DNA of 64,000 nucleotides from Sycon ciliatum (lineage: Eukaryota; Porifera; Calcarea; Leucosolenida; Sycettidae): positions 23,380,310 to 23,444,309 of the forward strand of contig NC_088650.1 of the NCBI RefSeq assembly GCF_964019385.1. Reading direction: 5' to 3'. The notes below the pieces were generated by a model that saw only the letters and a list, made by a program, of their open reading frames with translations, searched no databases and was not told where the DNA came from. Positions within the stretch are counted from its first letter, which is position 1, and each line of letters starts with the position of its first letter. The translations under genes and the position numbers were made by a program. Shown piece after piece: positions 1,099 through 49,176 of the stretch.

Positions 1099-1830
1099 GA
1101 GCTTGGAAGCTCAGGGCCCTACGCTATGCTTTTTTGCCTTGATGACCTAGACAAAAAAAAGCATAGGGATGTTTTCTTTAAAAAAATCCTTTTTTTTAAA
1201 CCTGGGATTCGAACCCGCACTATCGCGCGCCCTGCATGCAGCCCCCGATACACTTCGCATACATACTAATTCTTCCAAGTTGTTTCACATTGTGATCTTG
1301 CATTTGAAAGCCCTATTTGAATATGCATTGTGGCCAGCCATCTTTGATGGCACGGTACGGTAGGGAATAGGTACGGGACAGGTACGATCGAGGGTAATAC
1401 GACACCGTCTAGCTGCCCGCAATATTCAAATAGGGCTTTCAAACGCAAGATAATAACGTGAAGCAACTTGGAAGAATGGGTATGAATGCGAAGTGTATGG
1501 GGGAATGCATGTAGGGCGATAGTGCGGGTTCGAATCCCAGGATATGCCTGAAAAAAAAGGAGAATTGAAAAATTTATAACATCCTATGCTTTTTTGCCGT
1601 CAGATACGGATAGCGCCAGGCGTGACACAAACAAACAAACAAACAAACAAACACACAAACAAACAAATACCAAATTAAAGCTGTGTGGACCCTGGCTAGC
1701 GCCAGACGTTACTGAAGTAACGTCTTCTGCATAGCTACGGGAATTAAAGCTGTGTGGACCCTGGCTAGCGCCAGACGTTACTGAAGTAACGTCTTCTGCA
1801 TAGCTACGGGAATAAGAAGGTGTAATGTTG
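1099..1830. repeat. Palindromic tRNA-like repeat, copy 2, with 69-bp tandem duplication at its end
   Basis: This is a second copy of the 475-1052 repeat, beginning with the same GAGAGCTTGGAAGCTCAGGG start. Inverted B-box motifs lie near 1206 and 1528. It continues further right than copy 1, through an ACAAACAA tract into a terminal module (AATTAAAGCTGTGTGGACCC to CATAGCTACGGGAAT). That module is duplicated in tandem with a 69-bp period (about 1674 and 1743). The same module ends the copies near 17330 and 57590. Confidence 0.7.
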
Positions 1831-1982
1831 TACCTACCACCTTTGTTGGTTTCAGGGTTCATGTACTTTCTATTTGAAGTATACATACCTGTCAACCATG
1901 GACTACTTCTGGCTAGATTAACTCTTGTGTAATCATGGTGCTAGTGAAGCTAAGTGGGATCATTTTCCAGTCCACCCAGAGT

Positions 1983-2230
1983 TTTGGGGATTTCAGGGGG
2001 GTGTCGGCCGTTGGGCGGTTCAATAGCCAATTGAGTCATCTTTCCAAGATTCCTTTTGAGTCTCTCTCCCTTCTCCCGGGGAGACCCACGTGACCAGTTT
2101 TGGCAGTGAGCAACAAGTACAAGTACACGTGTGTGTGTGGTGTGTGCGTGTGTGCGCATGTGTGCATATGTGTGTGTGCGCGTGTGCGTGTGTGTGTGCG
2201 CGTGTGCGTGTGTCATGTATGTTGCACACC
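1983..2230. repeat. Dispersed repeat copy 2 ending in a TG-rich tract
   Basis: This is a diverged second copy of the 185-400 repeat. It contains GGGCGGTTCAATAGCCAA, GAGACCCACGTGA and TTTTGGCAGTGAGCAA in the same order and again ends in alternating TG/CG sequence. No gene is seen between 1830 and 1983 or between 2230 and 2600. Confidence 0.7.
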
Positions 2231-2605
2231 TATGTCGATCCCAATCAGTGACATAACCGTGGCAGTTTGGCCTCTCACTGTTTCACAATGACGTTGACAC
2301 GTGTTTGGTTGCAAATGTACAGCACTTCTAGTCCAGCACTTCTACAGTCCATTCTTTGGAAACTGGCACTCTAACTTTTTGGTGTCTCTCTCACATAGAT
2401 GTAGATACTAGGATCGTGAAAACAACAGTACATCCTGCATTGGGTGACCCGTGCAATTACTCCTTGCCACATTTGAGGCCAAAAAAGTCCAAGAACAGGG
2501 AAATAGAAATTCAGTCAGGTTTTACAAAATTAGGTTTCTAATGAATGGACTGTAAGTCCAGCAGTGTGCTGTAAGCATGAGTGTAACATCATCGCTGTAC
2601 AGTAG

Positions 2606-3047
2606 CCCCAAGAGTATACAACCCCCCCCCCCCCCTCCCCCAAGAGTATACACTCCCCCTCCCCCAAGAGTATAGAACCCCCCCCCCCCCTCCCCCAAGA
2701 GTATACAACTCCCCCCCCCCCCCCCCCAAGAGTGTGCAACTCTGCATATGGGGTCTTAGACGGCGAAAACTCACATCACGTGTCTCAGATACGTTCGTAC
2801 TACGTACCAACGAAGGATAGCGTGCGCGCAGTCCGAATATCTGCCATGATCATGCTGGGGATTTGCATACCCGCAGTGAGTTTCTGTCAGAGAGTGCTTT
2901 TTTTATTACTTCGCTGCTCACTAAAAACGGGCAGGAAACGTACAACTGCGACACTGCACCACGTGATGTGAGTTTTCGCCGTCGGCGTACCCCATAGAAA
3001 TGGTATCAGGAGTTGCACACTCTTGGGGGGGGGGCTATACTCTTGGT
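2606..3047. mobile_element. CCAAGAGT-family palindromic MITE, copy 1
   Basis: The left end has four tandem C-rich modules with CCCAAGAGTATACAAC-like cores. The right end is the inverse, with GTTGCACACTCTTGGGGG followed by CTATACTCTTGG. Subterminal sequence is also inverted: GGCGAAAACTCACATCACG near 2763 mirrors CACGTGATGTGAGTTTTCGCC near 2959. Two further copies lie at 48069-48361 and 63007-63389. This is a non-coding DNA-transposon derivative; the superfamily is not recognised. Confidence 0.75.
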
Positions 3048-3315
3048 AACACTTTACTGAACCTTGCGGCAGGGTTGGGTAAAGTGCTATAGGGATGGTT
3101 GGCACATAACGGGTGAAAGCTTGATGACAACATTGCTACATGGGTGCTGTTGGGTGACAGTAGGTGTATGCTGTGGCGACATCATTGTTGAATGGGTGGC
3201 AATTGATTACAAGCTGTGTTGATATCACTCTCGAGCATTGCGGCCATAATGCTATGGCACCGTGTTGTACACTTGTGTGTCAGCTTTGGTGTTGTTTGGT
3301 TCTGTTGTATATTCC

Positions 3316-3640
<325 letters not shown>

Positions 3641-3642
3641 AG

Positions 3643-4049
3643 ATATAGGGCTGTCCGTGCTTTGGGCACTTTTGACTATAGTGGGAGCCGTGTTTCAACA
3701 CAGATGGCTGAAGAGACATGGCCTGCTTAGCATGGTGGCACTGTTCCGATTGGCAGCCGGCCAAGAGGTGAAAAGGGATGATGAGGAAGAGAGGAGAGAG
3801 GAAGATGATTCAGATGGTGCGGACCCAACAGATACCGTCCGCAGCTCACCACCGTCTTCCACGTTGCTATGCCAACATGCCAGCACTAGCAGTGTTGCCA
3901 GCGAAGAAGTGGACGAGAATACACCGCTTTTCTCCAGGCGGACAAGAAGGAGTCGACTTTCGGCTGCCCTGCGTGGCGTGCTTTCGTGGTTTAGTCGTGC
4001 ACGACAGACGAAGCCTGACCAGCCACTGCTTGCTCCGGGTGAAGCCTGA
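3643..4049 (+). CDS. Probable terminal exon of a membrane protein with acidic cytoplasmic tail
   Basis: This is a partial gene: only the last exon is recognised, and upstream exons were not found in 1-3640. After the CTCCTCACAG acceptor the frame encodes one hydrophobic segment (roughly the first 20 residues, IGLSVLWALLTIVGAVF). A basic stretch, a strongly acidic patch (DDEEERREEDD), a Ser-rich region and a dileucine-like ENTPLF motif follow, and the tail ends KPDQPLLAPGEA. This composition suits a cytosolic tail after a final membrane helix. A 31-bp tandem duplication (4010-4073) shifts the frame near the end. With one copy only, the frame would run to a stop at 4102-4104 and encode a slightly longer tail. 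The family is not recognised. The hydrophobic and acidic pattern favours this frame over the two alternatives, but it is not proof of expression. Confidence 0.45.
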
Positions 4050-4073
4050 CCAGCCACTGCTTGCTCCGGGTGA
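4010..4073. repeat. 31-bp perfect tandem duplication inside a coding exon
   Basis: The 31-bp unit that starts AAGCCTGACCAGCCACTGC is present twice head to tail. Because 31 is not a multiple of three, the second copy is read in another frame and the putative protein stops four bases after the first copy ends. The copies are identical, so the duplication is recent. Confidence 0.85.
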
Positions 4074-4104
4074 AGGCGAAAGTCCAATGGTGCGTGAACC
4101 GTAA

Positions 4105-5834
4105 CCAGGCTTCTGGGCTGTCTGAGGAATGTTCAGTGCACCCTGCTAGTGTGCTCCCAGGACTTACGTGAGCCTGACCCAACGTGACAGCTACTCATTT
4201 TCAAGCATATTATTTTACTCACGGGCAGACAGAGGTGCGATGTTTATCAGCGCATGGGCACACGTGCGTACCCGCACACCCAACCACGTGCAAACTTACC
4301 ACGTCAGCGTGCACCCCCCCCCCCCCCACACACACACATGGCTGGCCTAGACTATTTGTGTCATCGCTGTTAGTAGGAGAAGTTTTCTTCATTCTCTTCT
4401 TTACTATACTGATTTTTTCTTGAGTATGTTTGCATCAATGCATGCGGTGCTCATGTACTTTCTCGTTTTATTGTCAAAGACAATACTGGTAGATGGCGAC
4501 CCGCTGTGGCTGGCCACCATCATAATCAGTGCCACCACCACCGCCAGCCACCATCACCATCACAACCTATTCACGCTTCTTGCCTCCTTCCTTTCTTGGA
4601 GCCGGGTTGTTGGCACTGTGTTTATTTTTACTTGGAGCCCCGAGCTTCTCACTCGTTCTACGCTTGAACAAAGTTTGGGGTTATTTTCCCCCAGATTAGC
4701 CACACCTCTTTTCACATTATCGTCGGAAACTATTAAAAAAATTGACACCTCTTTTCACGATATTGTGTAGTATTATGAAAAAAATTGCTGCGGAGCACAA
4801 TTATGCACCCACAATGCCATATTCTTATGCTGAGTGATGTACTAGCACTTGCAGATATTTTACATTAGATTGTGAGCCTCACACCTCAGACTTATTATCA
4901 GGGAGTAGTACAATACCGGTATTGTACTACTCCCTGCTTCTGATGATGATTTCACCATGCTCATACATGTACATGATCAGATTTTTTGTGCTCAGAAAGC
5001 CACCTTCAGAGAGAAAGTACTCCGCTGTTGCAATGTTTTTGTCTGAAAACTGTGAAAGGCATTCAGACCTGGTAGATCTGAACACTTTCACAAAGAGGTT
5101 GGACGCACTCCACATACTAGTACCTAACTAACTTACGGGGAGTGGATGTGTGAACTCTGTTTTCGTTTTGAAACAAATTGCCATCACCAGATCACTGTAT
5201 ACATGTGCGGTGTGCACATCCCGCATTGCCGAACTGTCCGGTTTATCCAGACACTGTGCACTGTCTAACTGAAATCTCACGCTCTGCCCGAAGAATAACG
5301 TAAATCGCGCGAGAGTCGGATTGATATTTCCGCACACGTCGGAACATCACCACCCTCAAGAACCAAGGCATATGCATTGCACAAAATACAGTTCCTTGAT
5401 TCTTTGATGAGATGATGGCTGTATAAAATCTAGGTTAATACTACACTGTACTTTCTTTGGTTTTTCGAATTTTTCTCAGTAGGGCTCTGAAACTTCTGGT
5501 GTGGACATAGGTGACAGCAGAGACATCTAAGGGTTCCAAAATACACACACATACACACGCCCACACACTATTGCACTTCTCCTGAGTACACATGCCTCGT
5601 AGTACCCACTTCACTTGACGAGTAGTTGGCATAGGATGGTTCTTTAATTATTTAAAAACTTTAAAAAAATGTTCTCAGGGGGCTCAAAAGCCAATAACAG
5701 CACAGGCTAAAACTACTGAAATACCCATAATGCATGGGAAGGTCCACGGCGAATTGATGTGTTTGATAGGTCAGGAAGTTTGAATTTTGTGCTCGATAGC
5801 GAGCTATGGTGGCTGGACGGTGGCACTGTGATTA
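4105..5834. other. Intergenic DNA without a recognisable gene
   Basis: No ORF here has coding character. It contains a poly-C tract (4314-4327) followed by a short CA run, a CCACCATCACC-rich patch near 4520-4560, the mini-palindrome at 4899-4936, and AT-rich sequence. It presumably includes the 3' UTRs of the two converging genes on either side. No clear AATAAA site was pinned down for either gene. Confidence 0.5.
4899..4936. mobile_element. Mini hAT-like palindrome, 38 bp
   Basis: This is a perfect 38-bp palindrome with CAGGGAGTAGTA/TACTACTCCCTG ends and an ACCGGT centre. Flanking octamers CTTATTAT and CTTCTGAT match at six of eight positions, as expected for a decayed 8-bp target duplication. 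It belongs to a family with members at 8249, 8385, 48008, 49048 and 49534. Confidence 0.7.
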
Positions 5835-7519
5835 CTATGACAGTGGGAGTCCATCCAGCGGACAGTTTGGTGAGGAGTTAAGGAGCCATCGCTCAATGCA
5901 CTCCTTGTGGAACTCATGGCCACAGGGCAGCCGGGCTAGCACACTGTCAGGCGTGTAAGAGTCCATGCACACCGAGCACTGCGCTGCTGCTGCTGCCGTT
6001 ACAGTCATGCCGCCATCGCCGCTGTACTGGAATGTGGGCAGCTGCTGAACAACATCGCTGCTAGCCGTCTTCCTTGCCACACTGGCATCCAGCTGTAGCA
6101 GCAACTCATAGTCTTCCGGGCTGATGTCGCGATGCTGCAGCACTTCCAACGCCCGGATGAGCCGGGTCTCCAGATCGAGCTCCGCAGTGCGAGCGGCCGC
6201 CGCACGGAGTTCAAACTTGGCCGGCACCGGGTTTCCACGGTTACGCGGCGGAGCACGCTGCCGTGGTGTGTAGGAGTAGCGGTGACCGTGGTGACCAGCG
6301 CCATCGGTTGTATAGCCGGGCGTGGTGGCGACCACGGTGGGCCGCGGCAATGCGGCAGCCTTGCGTGCCTTACGCTGCAGGCAGTCACACTCAGTGCGGC
6401 ACTTGCGCGTGCACCTCGCAGCTACATAGCGCGACTTGGCTGATGTGAACGGCGATGGAGATTGGCGCGTTTCACAGCGGTGTAGTTGGCTGCCCAACGC
6501 AAAGTCCATCGATTCACACTCGTGCTTTGCCAGGAACTTCTTGAGGGAGTGACGAGTCGTGGGCAGCCATCGACCTCTGTTGCAGACGGGTGCTTCGAGA
6601 GAGTTAAGGATAGCAGAGGATTCGACACAGATCTTAAAAGAGCTTTGTGCAAGGTGGCGGCTGGGCAGTTTGAGTCGAGAGATGAAGCTCCAGCGGATTC
6701 GACGAAGATGCCTTGTTGCACCGTGCCTAGCTCCGTCCATAGTGCTGGATGTCGGCAACTTACGGTGCCTGGAGCATTCCATGACACACTCCTCAAAGCC
6801 GAGGGCTTCACTGATGGCATAGGCATGATCGGTGTGAACCACGTCCCCGCACATCGTGTCTTCCACGTGATCAGCGCTGCGACCTTGTGACTCCGGCCAT
6901 TGCGCATAGTCGTCCTCGTCTTCTAGCAGTTCCACGGCGAGTCCCAGCACCTTGAAGATGTCTTGCCCGACTAGACGCCGGTGCTTCTTGCGATGACGTG
7001 TGCTGGTCGTGCGTACAACAGTGGCTGCTGCTGCTGCTCCGTTAGTCTGAGTCCGTGTAGGTTGCTGCTGTGCCGAATGCTCTTGTTTAGCAGATTGACT
7101 CTTCAAGTTCTTCCTCTCCCTTACAGTATGGGACGCACCAAGAGGAGGGAAATCCACTTCGTAGGCACGCTGGCGAGCTTGATCGAGTCGGAGTATCTCT
7201 TGCTCACCTGTGGACTCTGACGCGACTGACACTTCACCAAGTGTCTGTGATGTTACACACAAATGTTCATATTGGATTTCCGGTGCGCGGCGGCCTTTCT
7301 CGCCGTCGGCATTGCTTGTGCGGTATTCGGAGGCCAATAGGCAATTTCCAGTGATTTCCAGAACCATGGCCTCAGGTAATCTGCTGGCTTGAGTTCTAGC
7401 AGCTGGGCACTCCACACCGAGAAATTCAATAAATATGTCACAGAGCCGAGTCGTTGTCTTTGGGCAGCTGCTATCTTACCCCACAGAGCAGTGGGGGAGA
7501 ACTGAGCTTTCGGATCCAT
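5835..7519 (-). CDS. RING-H2 E3 ubiquitin-ligase-like protein
   Basis: The product is a probable RING-type ubiquitin ligase of about 535 residues. The C-terminal RING (about residues 489-530) has the spacing C-x2-C-x14-C-x-H-x2-H-x2-C-x11-C-x2-D. The eighth zinc ligand is Asp rather than Cys, as in RBX1-type RINGs. Before it lies a helical segment with the motif SPEDYELLLQLD, then Arg/Pro-rich and Cys-rich low-complexity regions; the N-terminal half has no domain I recognise. The long open frame begins at a GTG, so it has no ATG at its 5' end. My model starts at ATG 7519, with exon 1 at 7480-7519, a 77-bp intron (7403-7479, donor G|GTAAG, acceptor CCCAG) and exon 2 at 5835-7402, which join in frame. 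An internal ATG near 7367 is an alternative start. Sure of the RING, moderately sure of the start. Confidence 0.75.
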
Positions 7520-7835
7520 CTCGCTTGCTTTTTCTCTCGCTTTATCATCCGAAGTAAAGTAGAGAGATTACCATGATCAAACACACCTACTGTGACCTAG
7601 CTCCGGGGCCGGGCCCCCATGCTGGCCCAGCAAAGTAATTACGTCTTCGTTGTTGCTTGTTGCAGTTTGAGGTGCAATTTTAGTCAGTTACGTCACCTTA
7701 CGTCATGCCTGCATACGCGTATACGGTACATGTACATACACGTCATTAATTTTTTGGTGCAGTCGTGCATGCCTCGCGTCTCACGTGACCATGGTGACTG
7801 TCAGTTAGGCCCAGACAGATCCTGCCGGCTTCGGC

Positions 7836-8217
7836 AAAATATCGAAGAATTGAAAGAGCGGAAATTGCCGGCAAAATCGGAACAAAATATCGAAATGTTG
7901 GGTAAAATCGATGCCTGATATACTTAGATTTCCTTGTTTTTTACCCGTTCAGCAGGATACACTGCCCAGGCCAGGACGAGATCATGTTACCGAAATACAT
8001 GCATGTATCTCTGGGATTCACTGTGGATCGACTTGATTTTGGAAGAATTCAGGGACACGTGCGTTGAAACCGGTGCGATTTTTATGAAACGTTGTACGGG
8101 AAGTGGATATAATACACGTTTTCCCGGAGCAAAATGGAGCAAAATATCGAGTTTCTTGTGCCAGGCTCGGCAAAATATCGAAGATTTCGCAGCAACATTT
8201 TGCCGCAAAATATCGAG
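7836..8217. other. Cluster of CAAAATATCGA motifs
   Basis: The 11-mer CAAAATATCGA (followed by A or G) occurs five times, near 7836, 7873, 8138, 8171 and 8206, with shorter AAAATCG variants between them. No ORF or palindrome explains the spacing. TATCGA is part of the DRE motif bound by DREF-like factors in insects, but a regulatory role here is only a guess. Confidence 0.4.
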
Positions 8218-8248
8218 GCGACCTGAGCAGATCATAGATAGAGTACGC

Positions 8249-8286
8249 CAGGGAGTCGTCAAAATTTTAATACTGACGACTCCCTG
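8249..8286. mobile_element. Mini hAT-like palindrome, 38 bp, perfect 8-bp TSD
   Basis: Ends are CAGGGAGTCGTCA and TGACGACTCCCTG around an AT-rich 12-bp centre. It is flanked on both sides by GAGTACGC (8241-8248 and 8287-8294), a perfect 8-bp direct repeat. CAGGG termini with 8-bp duplications are typical of hAT transposons. Confidence 0.8.
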
Positions 8287-8384
8287 GAGTACGCACTGTG
8301 CATGTAGTGAGCCATTCAAAAAATACGAAAATTTTGAAAAGTAAAAAGTTAAAAGGTCGTGCGGCTAGGCCGGCTAGTAATAAC

Positions 8385-8412
8385 CAGGGAGTAGTACAAG
8401 TACTACTCCCTG
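8385..8412. mobile_element. Mini hAT-like palindrome, 28 bp
   Basis: The sequence is CAGGGAGTAGTAC, AA, GTACTACTCCCTG. It has the same termini as the copy at 4899 with an even shorter centre. No convincing target duplication is seen around it. Confidence 0.65.
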
Positions 8413-8899
8413 CTTTCCACAACAGCAGGAGGTTACTTCCGACCACTGAAATACGAATGCCTTTTGACAGCCGTTTCGGTCACTGAGACCTGGCCTCATC
8501 ATGCAGAGAAGATTCAGTTGTTGGATGACTGGAAAAGAAATACATGCAAGCATCAATTTTTTCATACCGAGAAATAAGAGATGGCGCGCTGGTGTGTGCG
8601 GCGTGCGCTCTGGGAAAACTCACAACAGTTACATGGAACACCCTACACAATGTCCATCACCAATGTAAGTGATCTCTTTGAAGTATAATTTGAAGTATAA
8701 TGTCACTACTCAATCGAATGTTCGGCCAGGAGCCATCATCAGGATCGAGGGGAAACCTGTGAAGTGCACGGCCTACATAATACCGGTATATCATACAACA
8801 CAAGGTGCCAGGGAAGGTGGGATGAACTACCCCATACGTGATAAAAGTACACCGTCACGGAATGATTCAGCTGTCACACACTCAGACACACACGCACGC

Positions 8900-9042
8900 A
8901 TAAAGTTACATACACACACACACACACATAGTGACGCGTACGCGCACGCACCATGATGAGGCACACATGTGTGTGTGTGTGTTTGTGTGTGTATGTGTGT
9001 GTGTGTGTGTGTGTGTTTGTGACAAACACACACACACACAAT
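8900..9042. repeat. CA and GT microsatellite cluster
   Basis: A (CA)n tract at about 8900-8928, then (TG)n with TTTG interruptions at about 8970-9017, then (CA)n at about 9023-9042. The opposite-strand arrangement can fold back on itself. The rest of 7520-10419 shows no gene; it holds the mini-palindromes and the minisatellite at 9257. Confidence 0.85.
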
Positions 9043-10419: not shown

Positions 10420-29137
<18,718 letters not shown>

Positions 29138-33700: not shown

Positions 33701-36700
33701 CAGGGACGGACTGGGTGCTATGGCTCTGCACATCATACATTCCAACCACTGGTTATTTTATTATTTTAAGTGAAAGATGCTGCTTGTGATGCTTATGATT
33801 CACCGTAATGCCGTCCTTTCGTGGCTGCTGCACTGTGTACTGGCTATTATCATGCAGGTTGCACCTGGAACACTTCACTGGTCACCATGATAGCCTCTAG
33901 CATAGCACTGGAGGCAAGCAGTGTGGGTGTGGACATAGGGCTCACACCAGTACTGAACATGTTCACTGATCCCAGGTCAGTACAACAACTGCATGTACAA
34001 TGCTGCTCAATGAAATCCGACGCCACGTGTCAAGTGCTTGCCAGGCACTGTGCAGCCCTATATATGTGAACGACTGCGCTGGGCACTGGTGCACGGTGCA
34101 AACTTGACTCGCGCAATCAGATTTCATTGAGGAGCACTGTATGGATCACTAGATGGACTCTACCACAGACATCCTATTTTGTGCACGGCTTGTAATACAT
34201 GTTTTTTTTTATTAAGTTGAAGTTCAGAAGGAAATAATACTATACTCAAATTAACCCGATTATTCGAAGTAATCTCTCAAAAGTGACTTCGTCTATTCCA
34301 GCCGTTTCTTTAGCGGAAACCATGTACGTTGGAAGGTGACATTTGCTGGCATGATGTCTCCTCGAACAAAGACATGATGCAAAAAGAAACTGCCCCTCAA
34401 ATAGAGGAAGACTGGCACCAACACTTAAAAAGCATATTGCGTTCTTGTCTCCGAGGAAACTGTCTACTTATCATATGGGTCTCTGTTAGGCGATCCTGAG
34501 CAAGTGCATGAGCCTACCAAAAGGACAATGTCTTTGCCTCGCCGGTGTGTTTGTGCACAATGTGCTTTGAAACACTCAAGGGAGAGGGAGAGGAGAGGGT
34601 GATGAACTGTTTAGAAGCCGTGGAAACCCACCATCAGAAATTAGTTTCCGAAATCATTCCGACTACTGACTACTGACTAGGTGTTATAGAGAGACTGGGT
34701 CCTATTGATGATGAGAACAGCAATGCAGTGCCAACATTGACAATGCAGTAGATAGTCACGCAGCCAGTGTTAATCTACTACCTGAATACAATTTCCATCC
34801 AATTCCCGAGTCCAGCTAGTCCGACCAGAGGTCTCGGAGTCAGCACCGGATGCGCGTACCAGGAAGGGGTGAGGGCGGGTTGAGGGGGAGAGGAATGTAG
34901 TACTAAAATCGCACCATAAAGTAGAAAATCAAATACAGGTGTAAGGCGTGTGTACAGTGTTATGGTTCTTAGTTGATCTTAGTTGCTGTCTATGGCCCAC
35001 AGCCGGTCCTTCTGGCGAAGGTGCTTCCAGGCAGCTGCCTTGAAGGCAGGCATACTCTTCAACGGTAATTCTTGCCGGAAGAGAGTAGGAGGGTAGGCAG
35101 TACCGTTCACCGATGAGGCGGTGAATGGGAAAGATCTCCTGATGCAATCTGGAGCACCTGGTGGAAGTGGGTTGATGAGTTGGTGCTTATGGACTGGCAC
35201 ATGCTGACTGCGTGTTCCTGGGGTATGAACCCTGGGGGCAGGTTTGTACTGAAGTACTTCAAACTAGCGGAAATATGGCTTGGTGTAGCATACCTGCCAA
35301 GCATCCCGATTTTCGGGATTATCCCGCAACTTTGGGTGAACTCCCGCGATCCCGAAATTCCTGTCGATTATCCCGGAAATCACTGTCACACGAAGCAAAA
35401 TCTTGATCTTGTTCTTGGAGCACTTCCAGTTCAAGTGACTGTGTCTAGCTGTCCTTGTTGATTCTGTACCGCCATAGCTGTAGAACCAGTGGATTTTCTA
35501 GTACTCCTACCATGAACAATCTCCAAACCTCTTTGAGTCTCGAACATGTGGAAAATGCTATGTACATGCATATATCATCACCCGGTGTCATAAAATTTAA
35601 TGTTGGTGTCATCATTTAAAAGTTGAAAACGGAATTTTGGAAAAAAAAGTATGGTATATCCCGAAAAATCAAGGCAAATCCACTGATTTTGCCCTGGTGA
35701 TCCAGAAAGAGCACTCTCAGTACTTGACAGGTGTGGTGTAGACTAGCTTGTTGAATGTGGAAGCATGCTTGTGGTGACTCTCTGGCATTCTGTGTTGGCA
35801 ATTAGATTTGGTCGACACTCTGAAGGCTTCTCTGAGAACCCAACCTTGTCGGCAGCATACGCCAAGGCCGCGGTTGCAGGATACCAAGGTGAGAACACAG
35901 GTCCTACTGGTCGACAGTAAAATTACACAGTGGCGGATCCAAGGGGGGGGGGGGTGGGGGTTCGAAGGTTCTGCAAAGCAGAGCGGCAGTAGGGCGGCAC
36001 AACGCAGAAAAGTGTATGAAGAATGCAAAGCAATGTAAAAAGAAGGTGCGGTGGATAATATAGGAACACAAAGCAATGCAAGAGAAAAATTGAACGCAAT
36101 GGCGGAGGTGGATAAAATGAACGCAATGGTGAAGGTGAATAAAATGTGAATTGTGAAATGTGAATTGTGAAAGAAGGTGAGACTGTCCAAAGGAAGATGT
36201 GGTTATAAGCTTATTTCAGTACTATTAAAGGAGTACCTCATCAGACCATTGGAGTCTAGAATGGTGGAGCAGTCTCTTATCAGTATAATTTTTGTGTGCA
36301 GGTGAAAACAACTAGGGGTGTAAAAAGAAGCAGCCGGGTAGGTGTGATTCTCAGACATGTTGAGGTGACTAGCCAGGCTTTTCGTCTTTTACCAGGCGAT
36401 AAATGGTGCCTGGCCCAAAATGGTGTCAAGTTTGTGTTTAATCCACAAGGTTTTTTACACCTTACTTAGATCGGTTAGACCTGGATGATATGGGAGTATG
36501 AGTGGCGGTGTGGTGTTGTTTTTTAGAGCGAGTGGGTCGTTTGCGATGAGTAGAGGATATGGCTGCGTTAACTACTGACGTGGAGTAGCCACGTTCGATT
36601 AGTTTAGCTGCTAGAGAGGAGCGAGTACCTAAAGAGGTGGTTCATAGATCCTCTATCCGCTCTGATCATATCCCCAGGTGCCATTGCCTTCCAAGTATGG

Positions 36701-39700
36701 GAGGGGTGGGATGATCTGGGAGAGATATATTGGAATTTGTTTGTTTGTTTAAGGTTAATTTTGGATTCAATTATGTAAAAATGAATACAGGTTGGAATGT
36801 CAAACTATTAGAATGCATGTAAAGTGAAGTCCACGTCCCGACCGGTTTCGCTGTCTATAGCTCGTCAGGGGACGCTTAAAAAGAAAGCCGTGGACTAAAA
36901 ATTAGAAATGTGAGTACTTTTACATTGGCGGCCTCAGCACAAGTCCATACACTCACGCATTTTCGCTAGCACAAGTCTAGGTCCTCTGCCGAACCAAAAC
37001 CAACCCAAAAACCCACTATGTTCCAAACATAGGGTTTTGTAGTTGTCAGTTGTTATGCCAACAGTAGTGGAGCTTTTATCCGCTCTACACACCACAAGAT
37101 TGGTGTTACGAAGAGTTAGGAGGGCTTTTAGTTCAGGTGGTGTGAGATTGTTATTTCTGGGTTTGGGTTTGTAGTTTTGTAGAGTAGTGCCAGGGTGCAT
37201 ACTAAACTCAATAAGTTCGATAGGAATAGGGTTGAGCGGTGGTGTCCAATTAGATTTGGCAAAATTCTAGAATATTGATTTTTAGCGCGTGGCTGATCCA
37301 TGAAGTATGCATGGACGTGTAGATTACGCAGAAATCTAGGGACATTATCTGCCCAGGATTTGTGTGGGAGAGTGTTAGTGCGAGGAACGAATTTAAGATC
37401 GAGATTAGGATGTCGCGGGCGGTGTCAGAGATTTCAATGTCCCCGATCATCGTGACCTGTGTGGTGTTTTTAGATTCGTTGAAAATTAGTTCTGCTGCAC
37501 TTTTTTTCAATCTCTGGCATTACTCTACAAAACTACAAACCCAAACCCACAAATAACAATCTCACACCACCTGAACTAAAAGCCCTCCTAACTCTTCGTA
37601 ACACCAATCTTGTGGTGTGTAGAGCGGATAAAAGCTCCACTACTGTTGGCATAACAACTGACAACTACAAAACCCTATGTTTGGAACATAGTGGGTTTTT
37701 GGGTTGGTTTTGGTTCGGCAGAGGACCTAGACTTGTGCTGGCGAAAATGCGTGAGTGTATGTATGGACTTGTGCTGAGGCCGCCAATGTAAAAGTACTCA
37801 CCTTTTTAATTTTTAGTCCACGGCTTTCTTTTTAAGCGTCCCCTGATGAGCTATAGACAGCGAAACCGGTCGGGACATGGACTTCACTTTACATGCATTC
37901 TAATAGTTTGACATCCCAACCTGTATTCATTTTTAAATAATTGAATCCAAAATTAACCTTAAACGAACAAACAAATTCCAATATATCTCTCCCGGATCAT
38001 CCCACCCATCCCATACTTGGAAGGCAATGGCACCTGGGGAGATGATCAGAGCGGATAGAGGATCTATGAACGAAGCCACCTCTTTTGGTACTCGTTCCTC
38101 TCTAGCAGCTAAACTAATCGAACGTGGCTACTCCACGTCAGTAGTTAACGCAGCCATATCCTCTACTCATCGCAAACGACCCACTCGCTCTAAAAAACAA
38201 CACCACACCGCCACTCATACTCCCATATCATCCAGGTCTAACCGATCTAAGTAAGGTGTAAAAAACCTTGTGGATGAAACACAAACTTGACACCATTTTG
38301 GGCCAGGCACCATTTATCGCCTGGTAAAAGACGAAAAGCCTGGCTAGTCACCTCAACATGTCTGAGAATCACACCTACCCGGCTGCTTCTTTTTACACCC
38401 CTAGTTGTTTTCACCTACACACAAACATTCTACTGATAGGAGACTGCTCCACCATTCTAGACTCCATTGGTCTGAGGTACTCCTTTAATAGTACTGAAAT
38501 AAGCTTATAACCACGTCTTCCTTTGGACAGTCTCACCTTCTTTCACAATTCACATTATATCCACCTTCACCATTGCGTTCATTTTATCCACCTCCGCCGT
38601 TGCGTTCAATTTTTCTCTTGCATTGCTTTGTGTTCCTATATTATCCACCGCACCTTCTTTTTACATTGCTTTGCATTCTTCATACACTTTTCTGCGTTGT
38701 GCCGCCCTACTGCCGCTCTACTTTGCAGAACCTTCGAACCCCCTAAAATTCACAAATGTACTATTGGAAACCATGCGCATGTACATGTATCAGCTATTGA
38801 GTTTTGGGAAAACTGCCCCCCCCCCTGTAGAGATCTCTGGATTTGCCCCTGCTACAGGTGAAGGTGAATGAAGAGGGCTTGGCACGCAAAGCTAGCGACT
38901 TCCGGTACTTTCTACCGCGCATAAGAATTCAAGTTCTTCCAAGCACGCCATAATTATAATTATGATGTCATGATGATGGGCATCATGCTTCAGAGTAGAA
39001 TTCTTGAACAGAAATGGTCAGATTTGGAATTGTTCTGCCCTGTGTCCGGAAAAGAAGGTCATGTGTGTTCTCCATCATTGCCATGCCTGCCTACATCTTG
39101 TGTGTTACTTATCCAGTGGGGTGCAGACAGGCATAATGGGATGCGGGTCTAAGACCATGATTAGAAAATAGAGGGCAGCACGCTCAAGTCCTGCTTGGAA
39201 GCGGAAGGATTATTTTCCAGCCGTGCTGCGACCCACAGTTAACACTTTTGGTGGGTCTGATCTACTCGCCTCCCACCACTTCAGGAGCTGCATCTGCGCC
39301 TTAGATCTTTGCAGGGTGATGGCATTCCTACGGTTACGAAAAACTGGGCCTGTAGCAGAGTCTCACGCGAACCGCGAATGATTTTACATCATTTTAGTGG
39401 AATGTAGTTTGATACTTGTGTGTACTTTAGAGAGGGCTGGATATCCGGCCAACACTTTTTCTGCTTCCAACATTAATATTTATTTTCTTTGTTGCCGACC
39501 ACTATAGGTGACAACGGCACGGGACCTTTGTCATACTTGGATCATAGCAAACATTTCGTGTCACTGGCCAAGCACTATGCTGCGTATGGAAACGCGGCCG
39601 GCGGGCAAAACGCCGGGCCGTCTCATTTCGACATGCAAACACTGTTTGATATCTATCTCAAGGTACAGAAACTCCTAGCAAAGCAGTAGGCAAGTTGGCA

Positions 39701-41996: not shown

Positions 41997-44900
41997 CTGT
42001 TGCTGGAGCAGTGTCAACCAGCCCAACGAAATGTTCCTTATCAGATGCAATGATCGTCAAATGTGATTGGAAACTTGCGGCTGCCAAATATACAACTATC
42101 TGAAGTCCAAGACCCTTGGCTGTGAATGCTGCTTAACTCTGCTCTCCTTCTTGTCCAACGTGTTGTGTTGTTGCGCAGCTCTGCGGTTGTTTGATGAACC
42201 ACTGGTCAATGACACAGCTCCCTCTGTTCTCAACACGCCGGAACACCAGATGCTGGCGTACGAGGCAGCACTCCAGGGCATGACCATTGCCAAATATCCC
42301 ACTGGACAATGGCCGCCGATTGCATCAACCGGTGATGCGTACATTGCCGTTTTGGGGCCCAATGGCGGGTGCCCGGATGAAGAGAGCTCATTTGAGATAG
42401 GTGAACTGGCTGGCGTCAACTTAGAGCATGGAGCAGAGTATGCACAGTCTGTATCCTCTCCATCACGCTCATCTTCAGCTGCCTCGCACTGCGATGCCCA
42501 AACCAACATGGCCGGCCCCAACAGCCAGTACGGCGACGTCGACATTAAGACAGTGGCCACGTATCTGAAGGAGAAAGTCAACGGCTCGACGGGGCGTGTG
42601 GCCTACTCTAGAGGCTGCGAGATTGGCAACTCGAGCACGGCGGACTTGGAGAAGGCACTTCAATTGGCTGCAAACGCTACTCACGTTGTGGTGGTGAGTA
42701 CAGTGAAGCTTTAGAATATCCTGGATATATAATCATATAACACACTATTCTAAAGGATAAAAGCGGGCCCCATACGGTTCGTATGGCCACAAGACCGAGA
42801 CTCTATACCTACCGGTTTATGGCTTCAGTCAGGAACACTGTTTTCCATACAGTGTGTCCTTGTGACAAGCTGTCATCGTAAAACAGGTTTCAAGGGCTAT
42901 AGACGTATAAAGTACGGTTTTGAGGATCCTGCATAAAATGGTGTAGCAGTCATTTGACCTTGGATACTCGTATGCATTAGCTTGGGACGGAGTTTGCATC
43001 TTGGTGGTACGTTGCACATTGGCTTGACTGCACTGTGTGTAACGTCTCTTCTACACGATGTTCCTCCGTACGCATAAACGTCATAGCTTTGTATGTTAGT
43101 TCAGGAGTAAAACATTGTTGCATATCAGCATTGGTGAAACAAGGCTAGAGCCATCACAAATATAACACATCTCCCCGACACAGTCCCTTGGTACGGGTAC
43201 GAGCATGGTATTGTTGTTTGTTGTTGTTTGTATTCTTCATTTAGAGTGGGAAGTCCAAAACAGGCCCTAGCCTAATAACAATGGTCCACTAGTATAGTGA
43301 GGGAATGCTGTATATCTGTGCATAGGGATCAGTGAGTGTAACAGCAACTAGTAGGGAAAGAAAAAGAGAGAAGAAAAACAACTCAAAACAGGAGTTGCGA
43401 CTTGCATAGGAAGAAAATAATGGAAAGAGCAGTGCATACAGCATTTGTAAAGAGGCTGTTAGATATTGCATACGTCTTCACTCTGTACATTGTCTCTGAT
43501 TTGACAGCTGCACTTTCGATGCATTTCTAGTATTTATTGCTACTGTGTGTTACCGTCGGACAACACTACGATTTATTGTTACATGTACGTTTTATGTCAA
43601 GTCAACCCTGTTCCCATTTGTTTTCTAGTTCTATACTTACTGCCATGACTTGTCCCGTTTATGGTTATACAGTCTTCTTCTTCTCCCGTTGTATTGCTTT
43701 CGTTTACCGGAGACTTCTACGGTATGTCTCTATTCGCCTCAACGCTGTCCTTATCCTGACACTAGCATTTTCTGCGTCGCGTACGGCTGGTGGGAATATC
43801 TACCCCAGCCGTCGTGATGTAGACGCTTCCTCACCATTACTTCTTAGAGGACAGTCACGAGTTCGAGTATCTCTGATACTAATGATAATGATTCTTACTG
43901 AAGTATGAGGAGAATTGTTTCCGAGTGGAAAGACACTGAGTGTCTATGTGTAATAACTAAATGAGCTCAACGAAGAGCCAAAACGTCCTTTAGGATTCTA
44001 CTACTACTAGTACGGGCAGAACCAGAGTAGGATCTCTAAAAGAGGCTTATTTATTTACTACCAACTTTGCAGTACATGTACATGTACATGTACATGTATG
44101 TGTTATTGCATAGTCGATTGCTGCTGATGTTGCATGCTCTCCTATTCGTTCAGGTGGTCGGAGATTCTCTAATGTCCTATGGCGAATGGCATGATCGTGA
44201 CTCGCTGGACCTTCCTGGTGGCCAGCTGAAACTCATCGAACAAGTGAAGAATGTAACCAAGGCAAAAATCATTCTTGTCGTGACGAGCGGGGGACCGGTG
44301 ACGTTCGGTGACAAGTAAGGACAGACCGAGGAAACGTTTAGAAACTTTACTTTTTGAACTTACCATCCATTCGTCTAAAACTGTTCCACTGGCTTTTGAA
44401 AGCCTGATTTGCTTTGTCATGTATACCTGGCAGGGTTTTTAACTTCTTATCCTTTGATGTTTCCAGTACTAGTGTCCTAACAAACCGATAGCATTAAAAA
44501 ATGTTACTGCAGTGTACAGAAAAAAGGGGAAACAAAAACAAAAGCAAAACCGTGAAAATCATCCCAATGGCCGTTTAGGTGATACGTGAGCTGTTCCCCA
44601 GAGTGGTATGCACTGCAACCGGCATAGGTGTGTTGGCTGCCTGCCGCTGAGGCGCTTGCATACATTAATGCTGTACGATACATGTGTTTGCCTTGCCTGT
44701 CCTGTTCCTTGCTTCTTTGCGCGCCGTGTGTAGGAATGCAGTACTGGACATGGCTGACTACGTGTTGATTGCGTGGAGGTCGGGGCAGATGGGTGGTGTT
44801 GCAATTGGTGACGCTATTCTTGGCCACGCTGAACCAACGGGACGATTGGCACAGGGATGGCCAAGGAATGTGGGACAGGTACGCCCATATTGGACGAGTA

Positions 44901-45715
44901 TTCTTCTTCAGTGAAACTAGGGGTGAAAGTTGGCACTGAGATCCCGAGTTCGAGTACTCTGATTTTCTCTGATCGAATATTCGAGTATTCGAGTATTCTT
45001 CATCTCCTAAAAATTGCACACCAAGGGCCTTAAAATCACATGATACAACCCTGATTGAACCGAGTGGCAGTCATTTTTCTCGGGTATAGTGGTTGGTGGG
45101 TCATTTGGGCTCTCTCTACTCGTGAACAAATGTTCACCACACCGTCTGCACATCAATATCTGCCGACTGCTGCTCTGAAACCGCAGATTTCTGTGGTAAA
45201 TGCATGTACCATGTATGAACGAGTACTCTGATTTATTCCGAGTACGATTATTTTTGAAAAAACCGAGCGAGTACTCGAGTATTCGGTATAATTGTTTCAC
45301 CCCTAAGTGAAACCATTGCAATTGTCTGCTGCAGCACTGGACAACAACATGGCAGTCGGATCCACTGAAGAACAATTCAATGCTTTTCTTTTCTTTCCAG
45401 CTGCTCATAAGATGAATGCGCATTGGATGGTGTGATGTACTGCACAGGTGAATGGGGCATCAAGTCCTTGGCTACAGCAGATTCGTGGTAAATGGGTAGC
45501 CAATGCACGCGGACAAACGGTAGACCCAGACGGACGACGCTATGACGACTACAAGGGAAGTCTGTCCACTCCTCTCTTCCCGTTTGGCTATGGCTTGTCA
45601 TTGTCTGAGTTCAAGTTTGACGCACTCAAGGCCACCAAGACAGGAGATGAGAAAGCTCCACTAATGGTGAGTAACATCACAGTCATGTGTGCGTTGCGTG
45701 TGTTGTACTTCAAAA

Positions 45716-46649: not shown

Positions 46650-49176
46650 TGTGTGTGTGTGTGCGTGTTGTGTGTGTTGTATGTGCGTGTGTGTGTGTGT
46701 GTGTGGTGTGTGTGTGGGGGGGGGGGGGTTAAACTTGACTGATCTAAAGTATGTTAACACCAGCTGTAGTCTGCTTCTAGCATGTGGATGCTTCAATGGA
46801 GGCTCAATACCAGTAAGACTGTCCATCTCCACCAAACGTTTTCACACTTCCTCAACCTCAACCTCAACCGGTGGTAGCTCTCTCATACACTGATAGGGTA
46901 AGAAGAACCTGCCACTGCAAAGGTCAAGTCTGCCACTGCAAAGGTCAAGTCTGCCACTGCAAAGGTCAAGTCTGCCACTGCAAAGGTCAAGTCTGCCACT
47001 GCAAAGGTCAAGTCTGCCACTGCAAAGGTCAAGTCTGCCACTGCAAAGGTCAAGTCTGCCACTGCAAAGGTCAAGTATGCCACTGCAAAGGTCAAGTATG
47101 CCACTGCAAAGGTCAAGTATGCCACTGCAAAGGTCAAGTCTGCAACTGCAAAGGTCAAGTCTGCAACTGCAAAGGTCAAGTCTGCAACTGCAAAGGTCAA
47201 GTCTGCCACTGCAAAGGTCAAGTCTGCCACTGCAAAGGTCAAGTCTGCCGCGCGTACAATGCCACAATGCAGCAATGCCATTGGTGTTATCACTCCACGT
47301 TTCATGCTTGTAACGCAATCAGCAGGAAAACACGGTGCGTGGTGTTGATCATGCTATCATGCCACCGAGCAAGGCATCAGCATTATACTTCACTTTGAAG
47401 TTTAGTTTAGTGTTCTAGTGTTATATTGCCAGCCATGCTCTCCAAGCACAGTTGCGCTTGGTGAAATCCGCCCCGAAGTGCAAAGCTGGCGCCCTGGACT
47501 ACCGTATTTTTTTTCGTATTTTCCCTTTCGAACTTAGCAGCCACATGAGTACTAACTTTCGGCGGTGGTACTATCTTTCGGGGAGTACTTTTTTATGGGG
47601 GTAAATGGCACGCAGTGGGAAGCCTGCGCAACTCTAGTGTCCGTGCATATGGTGTATGTACTGTACGGTGTCTGTACATGTAGGACGGGTACGGACTTAC
47701 TATCTTTCGGGGGGAACTGTCTTTCGGGGTGATAACCTCGGCAGTGGAAAGTGTATTTTTATAAGGGGTACTAAGTCATTGGGGAGAACTAACTTACGGG
47801 GAAATACGGTAGTTCCGATCACATCATTGTACTGGAGTATGTGTACCTGAGTACGTCCAGCCTAGCCGCATTCATGCCACTTTCCTGTTCCAGGGCGTCA
47901 AGGAAGGGCGTGCTAGTTCGAGTTGAGGGCACCAAATACGCTCTCTGGGTTGGATTTCACCGAGCACAACTGCAAGTGTGCTATGTAGAAGTTGAGCTTG
48001 TCATGTGAGGGAGTCGTAAAATACCGACTCCCTGGTCATGATAAGTAAGTAATAGTTAGTACTTGACTCAGACCAAGAGTACATAACCCCAAGAGTGTGC
48101 AACTCCAGCTATGGGGTCTGCCACGGCAGAACTTGACATCACGTGATGAACCCGTACACATTATTTGCACTCTGTGCATGATAGATACTGGGTTGTACGC
48201 AGCCCAGCTTTGGGTACAACTCTCTTGTGATCACTTTGCACTGTTTGCCAGTATAACCTTTTGAACCATGTCACGTGATGTGAAGTTCTGTCGTCGCAGC
48301 ACAGCATAGAGGTTGTGCAGGCAGTTGCACACTCTTGGGGGTTATGTACTCTTGCTCAGACTGATAGCCATGGCTGAATGCCATGGGTGGAAGAGCGCAA
48401 CACTTCACGGTGCAATCCCGCCCCGTGACAATCGTCTGCTCTCCCTGTGTTTGCAGGTTGCCGTTGACATCACGAATACCGGCGACCGCGACGCTACACA
48501 GGTAGTTCAGTTTTACGTTCAAGATCCAGTGTTGCCATGGGTACCGTACTGGAAGCGTTTGATTGCGTTCGACAAAGTCTTCCTCAAGAAAGGTGAGCTA
48601 ATTCTTGTGAACATGGGAAAGGAGCTTGTGCGCAACTGAACAGGAACTCTAAAGTACAATGTAACCTAAAACATGTGTATTTGTCGGGCATGGTCCTTTA
48701 ATTGGGTGTAAAGACTGCCCCTACTATTCTGACCGCGGGAGCAGGGTTTGTTTCAATAAGCTTGAAATAATTATATTGCTTGTAGTGAAGGCGGCTGCGC
48801 TCACGTGCTTCTCTCTCTCTCCCTCTCCCCACCCCCGCGTCACGTTGAGGATGCAGCAACTACCTATCATGTGCCAGTACAGTCATGTAGATAACAGTTA
48901 CAAACAAACTAAACACCGTAAGTATTTGATCTTGATCCGGCTTTCCAGTACTCTCTGATAAGACTGACCCATTGCGTATCTTTTTCCTACTCAAATCTAT
49001 TGTTGTTGTATACACGCAAGTTATCACCGGTGTGTCCATGTTTGTACCAGGAGTGGTAAGTCCACTCCCTGGTTTGTACACAACTACTGTATGTTTTCTA
49101 GGCATCGAATAACAAACTGTGTGTGTGTGTGCACGTGTGTGTGCACGTGTGTGTGTGTGTGTATGTGTGTGTGTGT

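Follow-up and report, generated by a model that had tools for sequence, protein, structure and literature searches.

Minimal type I hammerhead ribozymes of Penelope-like elements (PLEs) were reportedly described by Cervera and de la Pena in 2014 and by Lunse et al. in 2017. PLE hammerheads have a type I core with a minimal stem III and lie in the terminal regions of the elements (PMC7761336). Terminons and Athena are telomere-associated PLEs that are endonuclease deficient (PMC6431247; PMC7943196). In the rotifer Adineta vaga, endonuclease-encoding Penelope elements form inverted insertions, most commonly head to head (PMC3846280). Metazoan non-LTR retrozymes are built from units of 150 to 450 bp, and PLEs have been named as a strong candidate for moving the hammerhead satellites of animals (PMC7229834).

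We analyzed a 64,000-nucleotide stretch of Sycon ciliatum DNA (the window). It contains a palindrome of about 1.2 kb, the two arms of which are head-to-head copies of one element separated by a spacer (Table 1). An initial annotation had located a pair of mirror-image hammerheads here, in a Penelope-like element at 36835..37876. The cores are where it placed them, but that extent is too short for the arms. A global alignment of the arms from end to end (1250 versus 1230 nt) has 1196 identities, 25 mismatches, and 38 gap positions. For positions within the element we use a unit coordinate, u, which is 37514 minus the window coordinate in the left arm.

Table 1. Features of the palindrome and of the surrounding glycosidase gene (RT, reverse transcriptase)
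Feature	Position	Strand	Details
Left arm	35944..37193	-	Ends approximate; element sense on -; element 3' end faces left
Right arm	37514..38743	+	Ends approximate; element sense on +; element 3' end faces right
Spacer	37194..37513	-	320 nt, single copy; further 5' part of the element RT frame, only on -
Hammerhead A, left	36826..36896	-	Core 36840-36868, CTGACGAGCTATAGACAGCGAAACCGGTC; predicted cleavage 3' of C36840 on -
Hammerhead A, right	37815..37885	+	Core 37843-37871, CTGATGAGCTATAGACAGCGAAACCGGTC; predicted cleavage after C37871
Hammerhead B, left	36181..36269	-	Intact core 36207-36247; stem III palindrome ATAAGCTTAT
Hammerhead B, right	38447..38532	+	3 nt of CTGATGA lost
Inserted ribozyme module, left arm	36789..37018	-	u496-725, at the RT-core position
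Inserted ribozyme module, right arm	37689..37922	+	Ends approximate
RT N-terminal and motif-1 peptide	36934..37266	-	
RT C-terminal peptides, left arm	36462..36804	-	Include LIERGY
RT C-terminal peptide, right arm	37937..38254	+	
Candidate target-site duplication, left	35918..35929	+	TAAAATTACACA; weak, p ~0.04; 14 nt off the arm edge used
Candidate target-site duplication, right	38744..38754	+	TAAAATTCACA
Frame with GH3 N-domain exon, upstream of element	33809..34066	+	PF00933, E 0.016, profile 93-132, below curated cutoff
Frame with GH3-like exon, downstream of element	39477..39686	+	5z87 EmGH1 218-255, E 0.016; no Pfam match
Host gene, PF01915 matches	44040-44315, 44669-44911	+	E 1e-6 and 3e-8; second above cutoff

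Each strand has one intact core of the first ribozyme, hammerhead A, and each arm holds one. The initial annotation was also right about stems I (GTCCC/GGGAC) and II (GCT/AGC) and about C37871 as the cleavage base, and a reading of the cores as type I with a palindromic stem III is supported. A loose core pattern, CTGANGAN{6,24}GAAANNNGTC, matched the 64-kb window exactly twice versus 0.06 expected, a count reached by none of 100 shuffles. With CCGGTC fixed in the pattern, the expectation was 0.00. The Rfam check proposed at the outset gave no hammerhead match in the window at the gathering threshold. The best row was HH9, with 18.5 and 15.4 bits against a cutoff of 52 (E of 0.38 and 3.9), and the Rfam hammerhead models matched none of 10 related loci at E up to 1. 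As the test, we replaced Rfam with a covariance model built from 11 hammerhead A copies, all from outside the window. This model scored the window sites at 93.4 and 87.2 bits, with E-values (rough, as for all of our own hammerhead models) of 7e-25 and 5e-23. Its only other window row up to E of 10 was at 27285-27350 (-), with E of 0.32.

In both window copies of hammerhead A, the CUGANGA...GAAA core is present with H17, as are helices I and II. Helix III is not closed in the monomer: it consists only of the self-complementary ACCGGU with no loop, which is the dimer type. Covariation was modest: two pairs had changes on both sides, the observed covariation score was reached by 16 of 500 shuffles, and the percentage paired was reached by 50 of 500. 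Single-strand folding of short stretches gave little excess over shuffles (z of -0.8 to -2.2). A small hairpin (GCUUU/AAAGC) is conserved in the 5' bulge of stem I (for example, in 37815-37885). It is present in all 16 distinct rows, save for one pair in the two window rows.

Each arm also has a hammerhead of a second type, hammerhead B, which was absent from the initial annotation and lies in the element's own 3' region. Among relatives its pattern is TTGGT-CTGATGA-stem II-GAAA-TAAGCTTAT-H-ACCA. A model built from 13 rows, none from the window, found both window copies (E of 7e-27 and 2e-24). The left copy keeps its core, and the right (+) copy has lost part of it by deletion. For covariation we used 21 rows, 19 of them from outside the window. 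In this alignment 94.3% of cells were paired, stem II and stem III changed on both sides, and covariation was 0.097 versus 0.063 in shuffles. Hammerhead B exceeded the shuffles on three of five measures (pairing, covariation, and doubly changed cells; none of 500 shuffles reached any of them) and did not on two coarser ones (pairs with a double change and further pair types). Ten of the 21 rows do not form the first pair of stem II, and the alignment there is poor for three rows whose stem II is shorter. All 21 rows have A, C, or T as base 17, and none has G. Stem III could close as 3 bp with an AGCU loop. Folding of short stretches showed no excess over shuffles (z of -1.0 to +0.7); the predicted folds do not contain the full hammerhead, so folding energy is no evidence here.

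The hammerhead B pattern occurs at 44 places in the 538-Mb genome, and a reversed-pattern control gave 0. Hammerhead B is part of the parent PLE family. In another PLE lineage (L057), with a protein identity of about 50%, its model (R2) also finds a hammerhead (E of 6e-6). This second lineage lies at a contig start (C2:1-9000) as 3.82-kb tandem units with a hammerhead of its own, the stem III of which is a different palindrome, ACAGCTGT. Dimers of one hammerhead A and one hammerhead B were considered and ruled out, as their stem III palindromes differ (ACCGGU versus AUAAGCUUAU). Like the minimal PLE hammerheads in the source cited, those at this locus have a type I core and a minimal stem III and occur in the terminal region of a PLE (PMC7761336). 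In contrast, one element here holds two unrelated types. The stem III palindrome of each type is its own, and one type sits where the RT core should be.

An intact relative of the element has a 600-amino-acid RT frame with YIDD, which matches PF00078 with an E of 9e-5, below the curated cutoff. We take the family to be PLEs from motifs that appear to be of PLE type. A PDB search with the RT gave no meaningful match. No GIY-YIG endonuclease was found in the 600-amino-acid frame, the 527-amino-acid frame of the copy L037, or the scanned frames of the copy L040. Arrays with intact RT are found close to the end of contig C1, at the start of both C2 and C13, and on C173, a small contig without a placement. 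On C1, C2, and C13 their 5' ends point outward; the window copy is internal. At the C1 end there are five PLE copies in tandem. One joint between them is about 525 nt of pure CCCTAA, a second (L041) also runs into CCCTAA repeats, and the remaining three read AACCCTAACCTTACGG. The terminal 5.9 kb of contig C1 contain no telomere array. This and the missing placement of C173 count against a telomere-type location.

We examined 23 element 3' ends. The sequence AACCCTAACCC stands at nine of them. One or more CCCTAA are present in 14, among them the right end of the window palindrome, which has one. The other nine hold none, including the left window end, which has a run of C, and these nine count against a telomere-type reading. 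Even so, the parent family looks to be telomere type and fits the telomere-associated, endonuclease-deficient PLEs. As in terminons and Athena, no endonuclease was found, CCCTAA occurs at many 3' ends, a hammerhead lies in the 3' region, and 5' ends are directed toward contig ends (PMC6431247; PMC7943196). The family here differs from them in its TTAGGG-type repeats and compact tandem units of 3.8 to 3.9 kb, in the internal position of the window copy, and in hammerhead B, which stands some 240 nt short of the 3' end instead of directly beside the repeats.

The reading of the window element as Penelope-like in the initial annotation is supported, but the element appears to be a PLE derivative and is not a complete PLE: it keeps only the ends of the RT, and a 230-nt module with hammerhead A, of satellite type, stands where the RT core (about 800 nt in most relatives) belongs. 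A Pfam search with the RT remnants of the window gave only rows at chance level. We searched the genome with the arm unit and obtained at least 94 matches, the best candidates being scored, mainly at two kinds of place. PLE copies match u1-495 and a second stretch that starts at u726, u742, or u752 and ends at u1562. None of 27 PLE loci (L023-L049, overlapping places included) has a match to the module. Sixteen of the 27 keep both of its flanks, with 760 to 969 nt between them in 15 and 383 nt in the other (L043). Hammerhead A copies, on the other hand, match only inside u502-724 and build satellites. Since PLE copies do not have the module and hammerhead A copies are confined to the module region, the window arm is a chimera.

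A first genome search with the 29-mer of hammerhead A (up to 3 mismatches) found 271 forward and 133 reverse copies, against 0 for the control. Satellite arrays with one hammerhead A per 500-bp unit lie at C1:96.29-96.32 and C1:97.27-97.32 Mb (L014-L020). The two stretches have 38 and 63 copies (101 in all, up to 4 mismatches), 93 of them with an identical 29-mer, and the copies are mostly 500 to 505 bp apart. The arrays consist of blocks of both orientations, with head-to-head joints at distances of 223 bp (three times) and 797 bp. At another locus that carries hammerhead A (L010), there is a 2.7-kb inverted repeat (1402-4128 and 6275-9001) with 99.6% identity, and hammerhead A lies just within its left arm.

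The same chimeric order of RT start, module, and PLE 3' end occurs at C2:1.34 Mb (L056). This copy is head to head too, and both of its ribozyme cores are mutated. Next to hammerhead A lies a 104-nt segment. Both arms of the window palindrome, like both of those at L056, have it in the sense direction, and it is reversed in seven nonchimeric copies (two each in L009 and L011, and one each in L012, L013, and L014); it was not detected in L010. The shared flip means that the chimeras have a common ancestor and are one chimeric lineage at two loci. We also considered whether the satellite was derived from the chimera. Given the reversed segment in the seven outside copies, the opposite direction is likelier, although this is not certain.

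Non-LTR retrozymes are marked by tandem units that each carry a type I hammerhead and by a circular RNA product; the C1 arrays have the tandem arrangement, and the window copy, which is not in tandem, does not. The arrays resemble published non-LTR retrozymes, with hammerhead A in short tandem repeats and one type I ribozyme per unit (PMC7229834). They differ in the longer, 500-bp unit. A literature search of limited depth found no published description of a PLE body with a hammerhead-satellite module. What is unusual here is that a ribozyme-bearing satellite piece replaces the enzyme core, as the mirrored copies themselves recur in the genome.

The initial view of the mirror layout as unusual is not supported. 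Inverted pairs of the same family are found elsewhere in the genome, including at L009 and L056, and PLEs with inverted repeats are in print (PMC3846280). Like the Adineta vaga insertions in that source, the pairs here have inverted terminal parts, and some have candidate site duplications; unlike them, the arms are 1.2 kb long with RT remnants, and those insertions encode an endonuclease. Hammerhead B 3' regions lying within 8 kb of each other form 16 close pairs, of which 7 are in the same direction, 6 head to head, and 3 facing (two of the three facing pairs look like one duplicated stretch). With only 44 sites in 538 Mb, the closeness of the pairs is not chance. However, 4 of 16 would be head to head by orientation alone, so this form is not clearly favored. 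The window and L009 are further head-to-head cases that the hammerhead B pattern missed, and L056 is one more, with hammerhead A.

We compared the flanks of seven head-to-head loci; for the C8, C10, and C13 pairs the comparison covered the regions outside their centers. Flanks were nonpalindromic at five (the window, C8, C10, C13, and L056), with only short, low-complexity inverted matches at C13. The palindrome continues into the flanks at the remaining two loci, one at C9:24.89 Mb and the other, L009, at C4:3.43 Mb. The first of these, at C9:24.888-24.890 Mb (L028 and L029), is a head-to-head PLE with a palindrome that extends at least 1.37 kb into both flanks (92.9%). Among six loci examined for site duplications, L056 has a candidate that agrees in 13 of 14 bases (p of about 0.003) and the window has another (p of about 0.04); none was found at C8, C10, C13, and C4.

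The reading that we prefer, to which the sequences give about an even chance, is that the window holds a dead, nonautonomous copy of a telomere-type PLE that was copied onto both ends of one break. The parent RT would once have switched template to hammerhead A satellite RNA and back, and the chimeric lineage found today at two loci, both palindromic, would go back to that switch. We propose the switch from the order of the sequences. A PLE copy in which a hammerhead-satellite module replaces the RT core points to a single reverse transcription in which the two RNAs came together. At the window locus, RT may then have begun at the 3' tail of its own RNA at each end of a single staggered break, and two 5'-truncated copies would have been joined head to head, leaving the ribozymes as mirror images. 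The mirror layout would have arisen incidentally, through the insertion. Sense copies stand in tandem in the parent and in the arrays, and there the ribozymes could pair via the palindromic stem III and cut multimeric RNA. One PLE, an endonuclease-bearing one, is described as cutting and extending both DNA strands in vitro (PMC11167929). Copying onto both ends is in keeping with the nonpalindromic flanks at five of the seven loci and with the candidate site duplications in the window and at L056. It does not predict the two palindromes that extend into their flanks, site duplications are absent at four of the six loci and weak in the window, and the excess of head-to-head pairs is not clear.

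A broader version of this reading is more tentative. A telomere-type retroelement might serve as a two-ended patch on internal breaks, with extension from a CCCTAA tail, and the chimera might be a fossil of satellite-RNA copying; we think this possible, though doubtful. If true, such a fossil would tie hammerhead satellites (retrozymes) directly to the enzyme responsible for their spread. The idea that telomere-type PLEs heal internal breaks also becomes testable with the inverted insertions, which have telomere-like 3' ends and lie at internal sites.

Snap-back self-priming would give a similar product from one molecule. A single cDNA would have folded about 320 nt from its end and been copied back, with the spacer as the loop. 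The spacer is single copy and continuous with one arm only, as this predicts. A self-priming model has been published for PLE palindromes, and head to head is the commonest inverted form in that source (PMC3846280). However, a snap-back running through to the anchored end would often be expected to take in flanking DNA, and two of the seven loci show this. The arms also differ by several indels and the 25 mismatches, and later decay could explain these. On balance we find snap-back rather unlikely, but a serious competitor of two-ended copying.

An origin at the level of DNA is unlikely, but it too is a serious competitor. A single copy might have been doubled by inverted duplication, or sister chromatids might have fused after an addition of telomere type. 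The palindromic flanks at C9:24.89 Mb and L009 speak for such events, but the flanks of the window, C8, C10, C13, and L056 have no inverted match beyond the short, low-complexity ones at C13.

The initial annotation proposed a different role for the layout: a working pair of head-to-head ribozymes that cuts the pre-mRNA of a glycosidase gene. That the palindrome lies within an intron of a + strand GH3 glycosidase gene is supported by matches to PF00933, PF01915, and EmGH1. We take EmGH1 to be a GH3 enzyme. GH3-like glycosidase genes stand in tandem on + at 19.3-24 kb and 30.6-45.6 kb, and the second of the two hosts the element. Both hammerhead A cores are intact, and each strand does have one sense copy of hammerhead A plus the antisense of the other. 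With no loop to close stem III, though, hammerhead A needs a second sense copy. The + transcript of 36790-37920 (1131 nt) has a predicted fold of -860 kcal/mol, in which 70 of the 71 bases of the + hammerhead A pair with its antisense twin; this prediction ignores cotranscriptional folding and proteins. A published PLE hammerhead required protein for cleavage in vitro (PMC11167929). With one sense hammerhead A per strand, predicted to be locked to its antisense twin, and with part of the core missing from the + copy of hammerhead B, self-cleavage in the pre-mRNA is unlikely. The ribozymes in the window most likely do nothing, as either strand has a single sense copy of A and of B, predicted to be held in a hairpin by its antisense twin, and we consider a working pair very improbable.

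Palindromes are a known artefact of long reads, but an assembly artefact from a foldback read is hardly credible for arms that differ by 25 mismatches and indels, lie between different flanks, and have other inverted copies in the genome.

Two further features were seen in the window. An open frame of 1046 amino acids at 24584-27724 (+) is of Gypsy type, with protease-like, RT, RNase H, and integrase matches. A minisatellite at 46817-47398 is open in several frames and encodes a CHCKGQV repeat.
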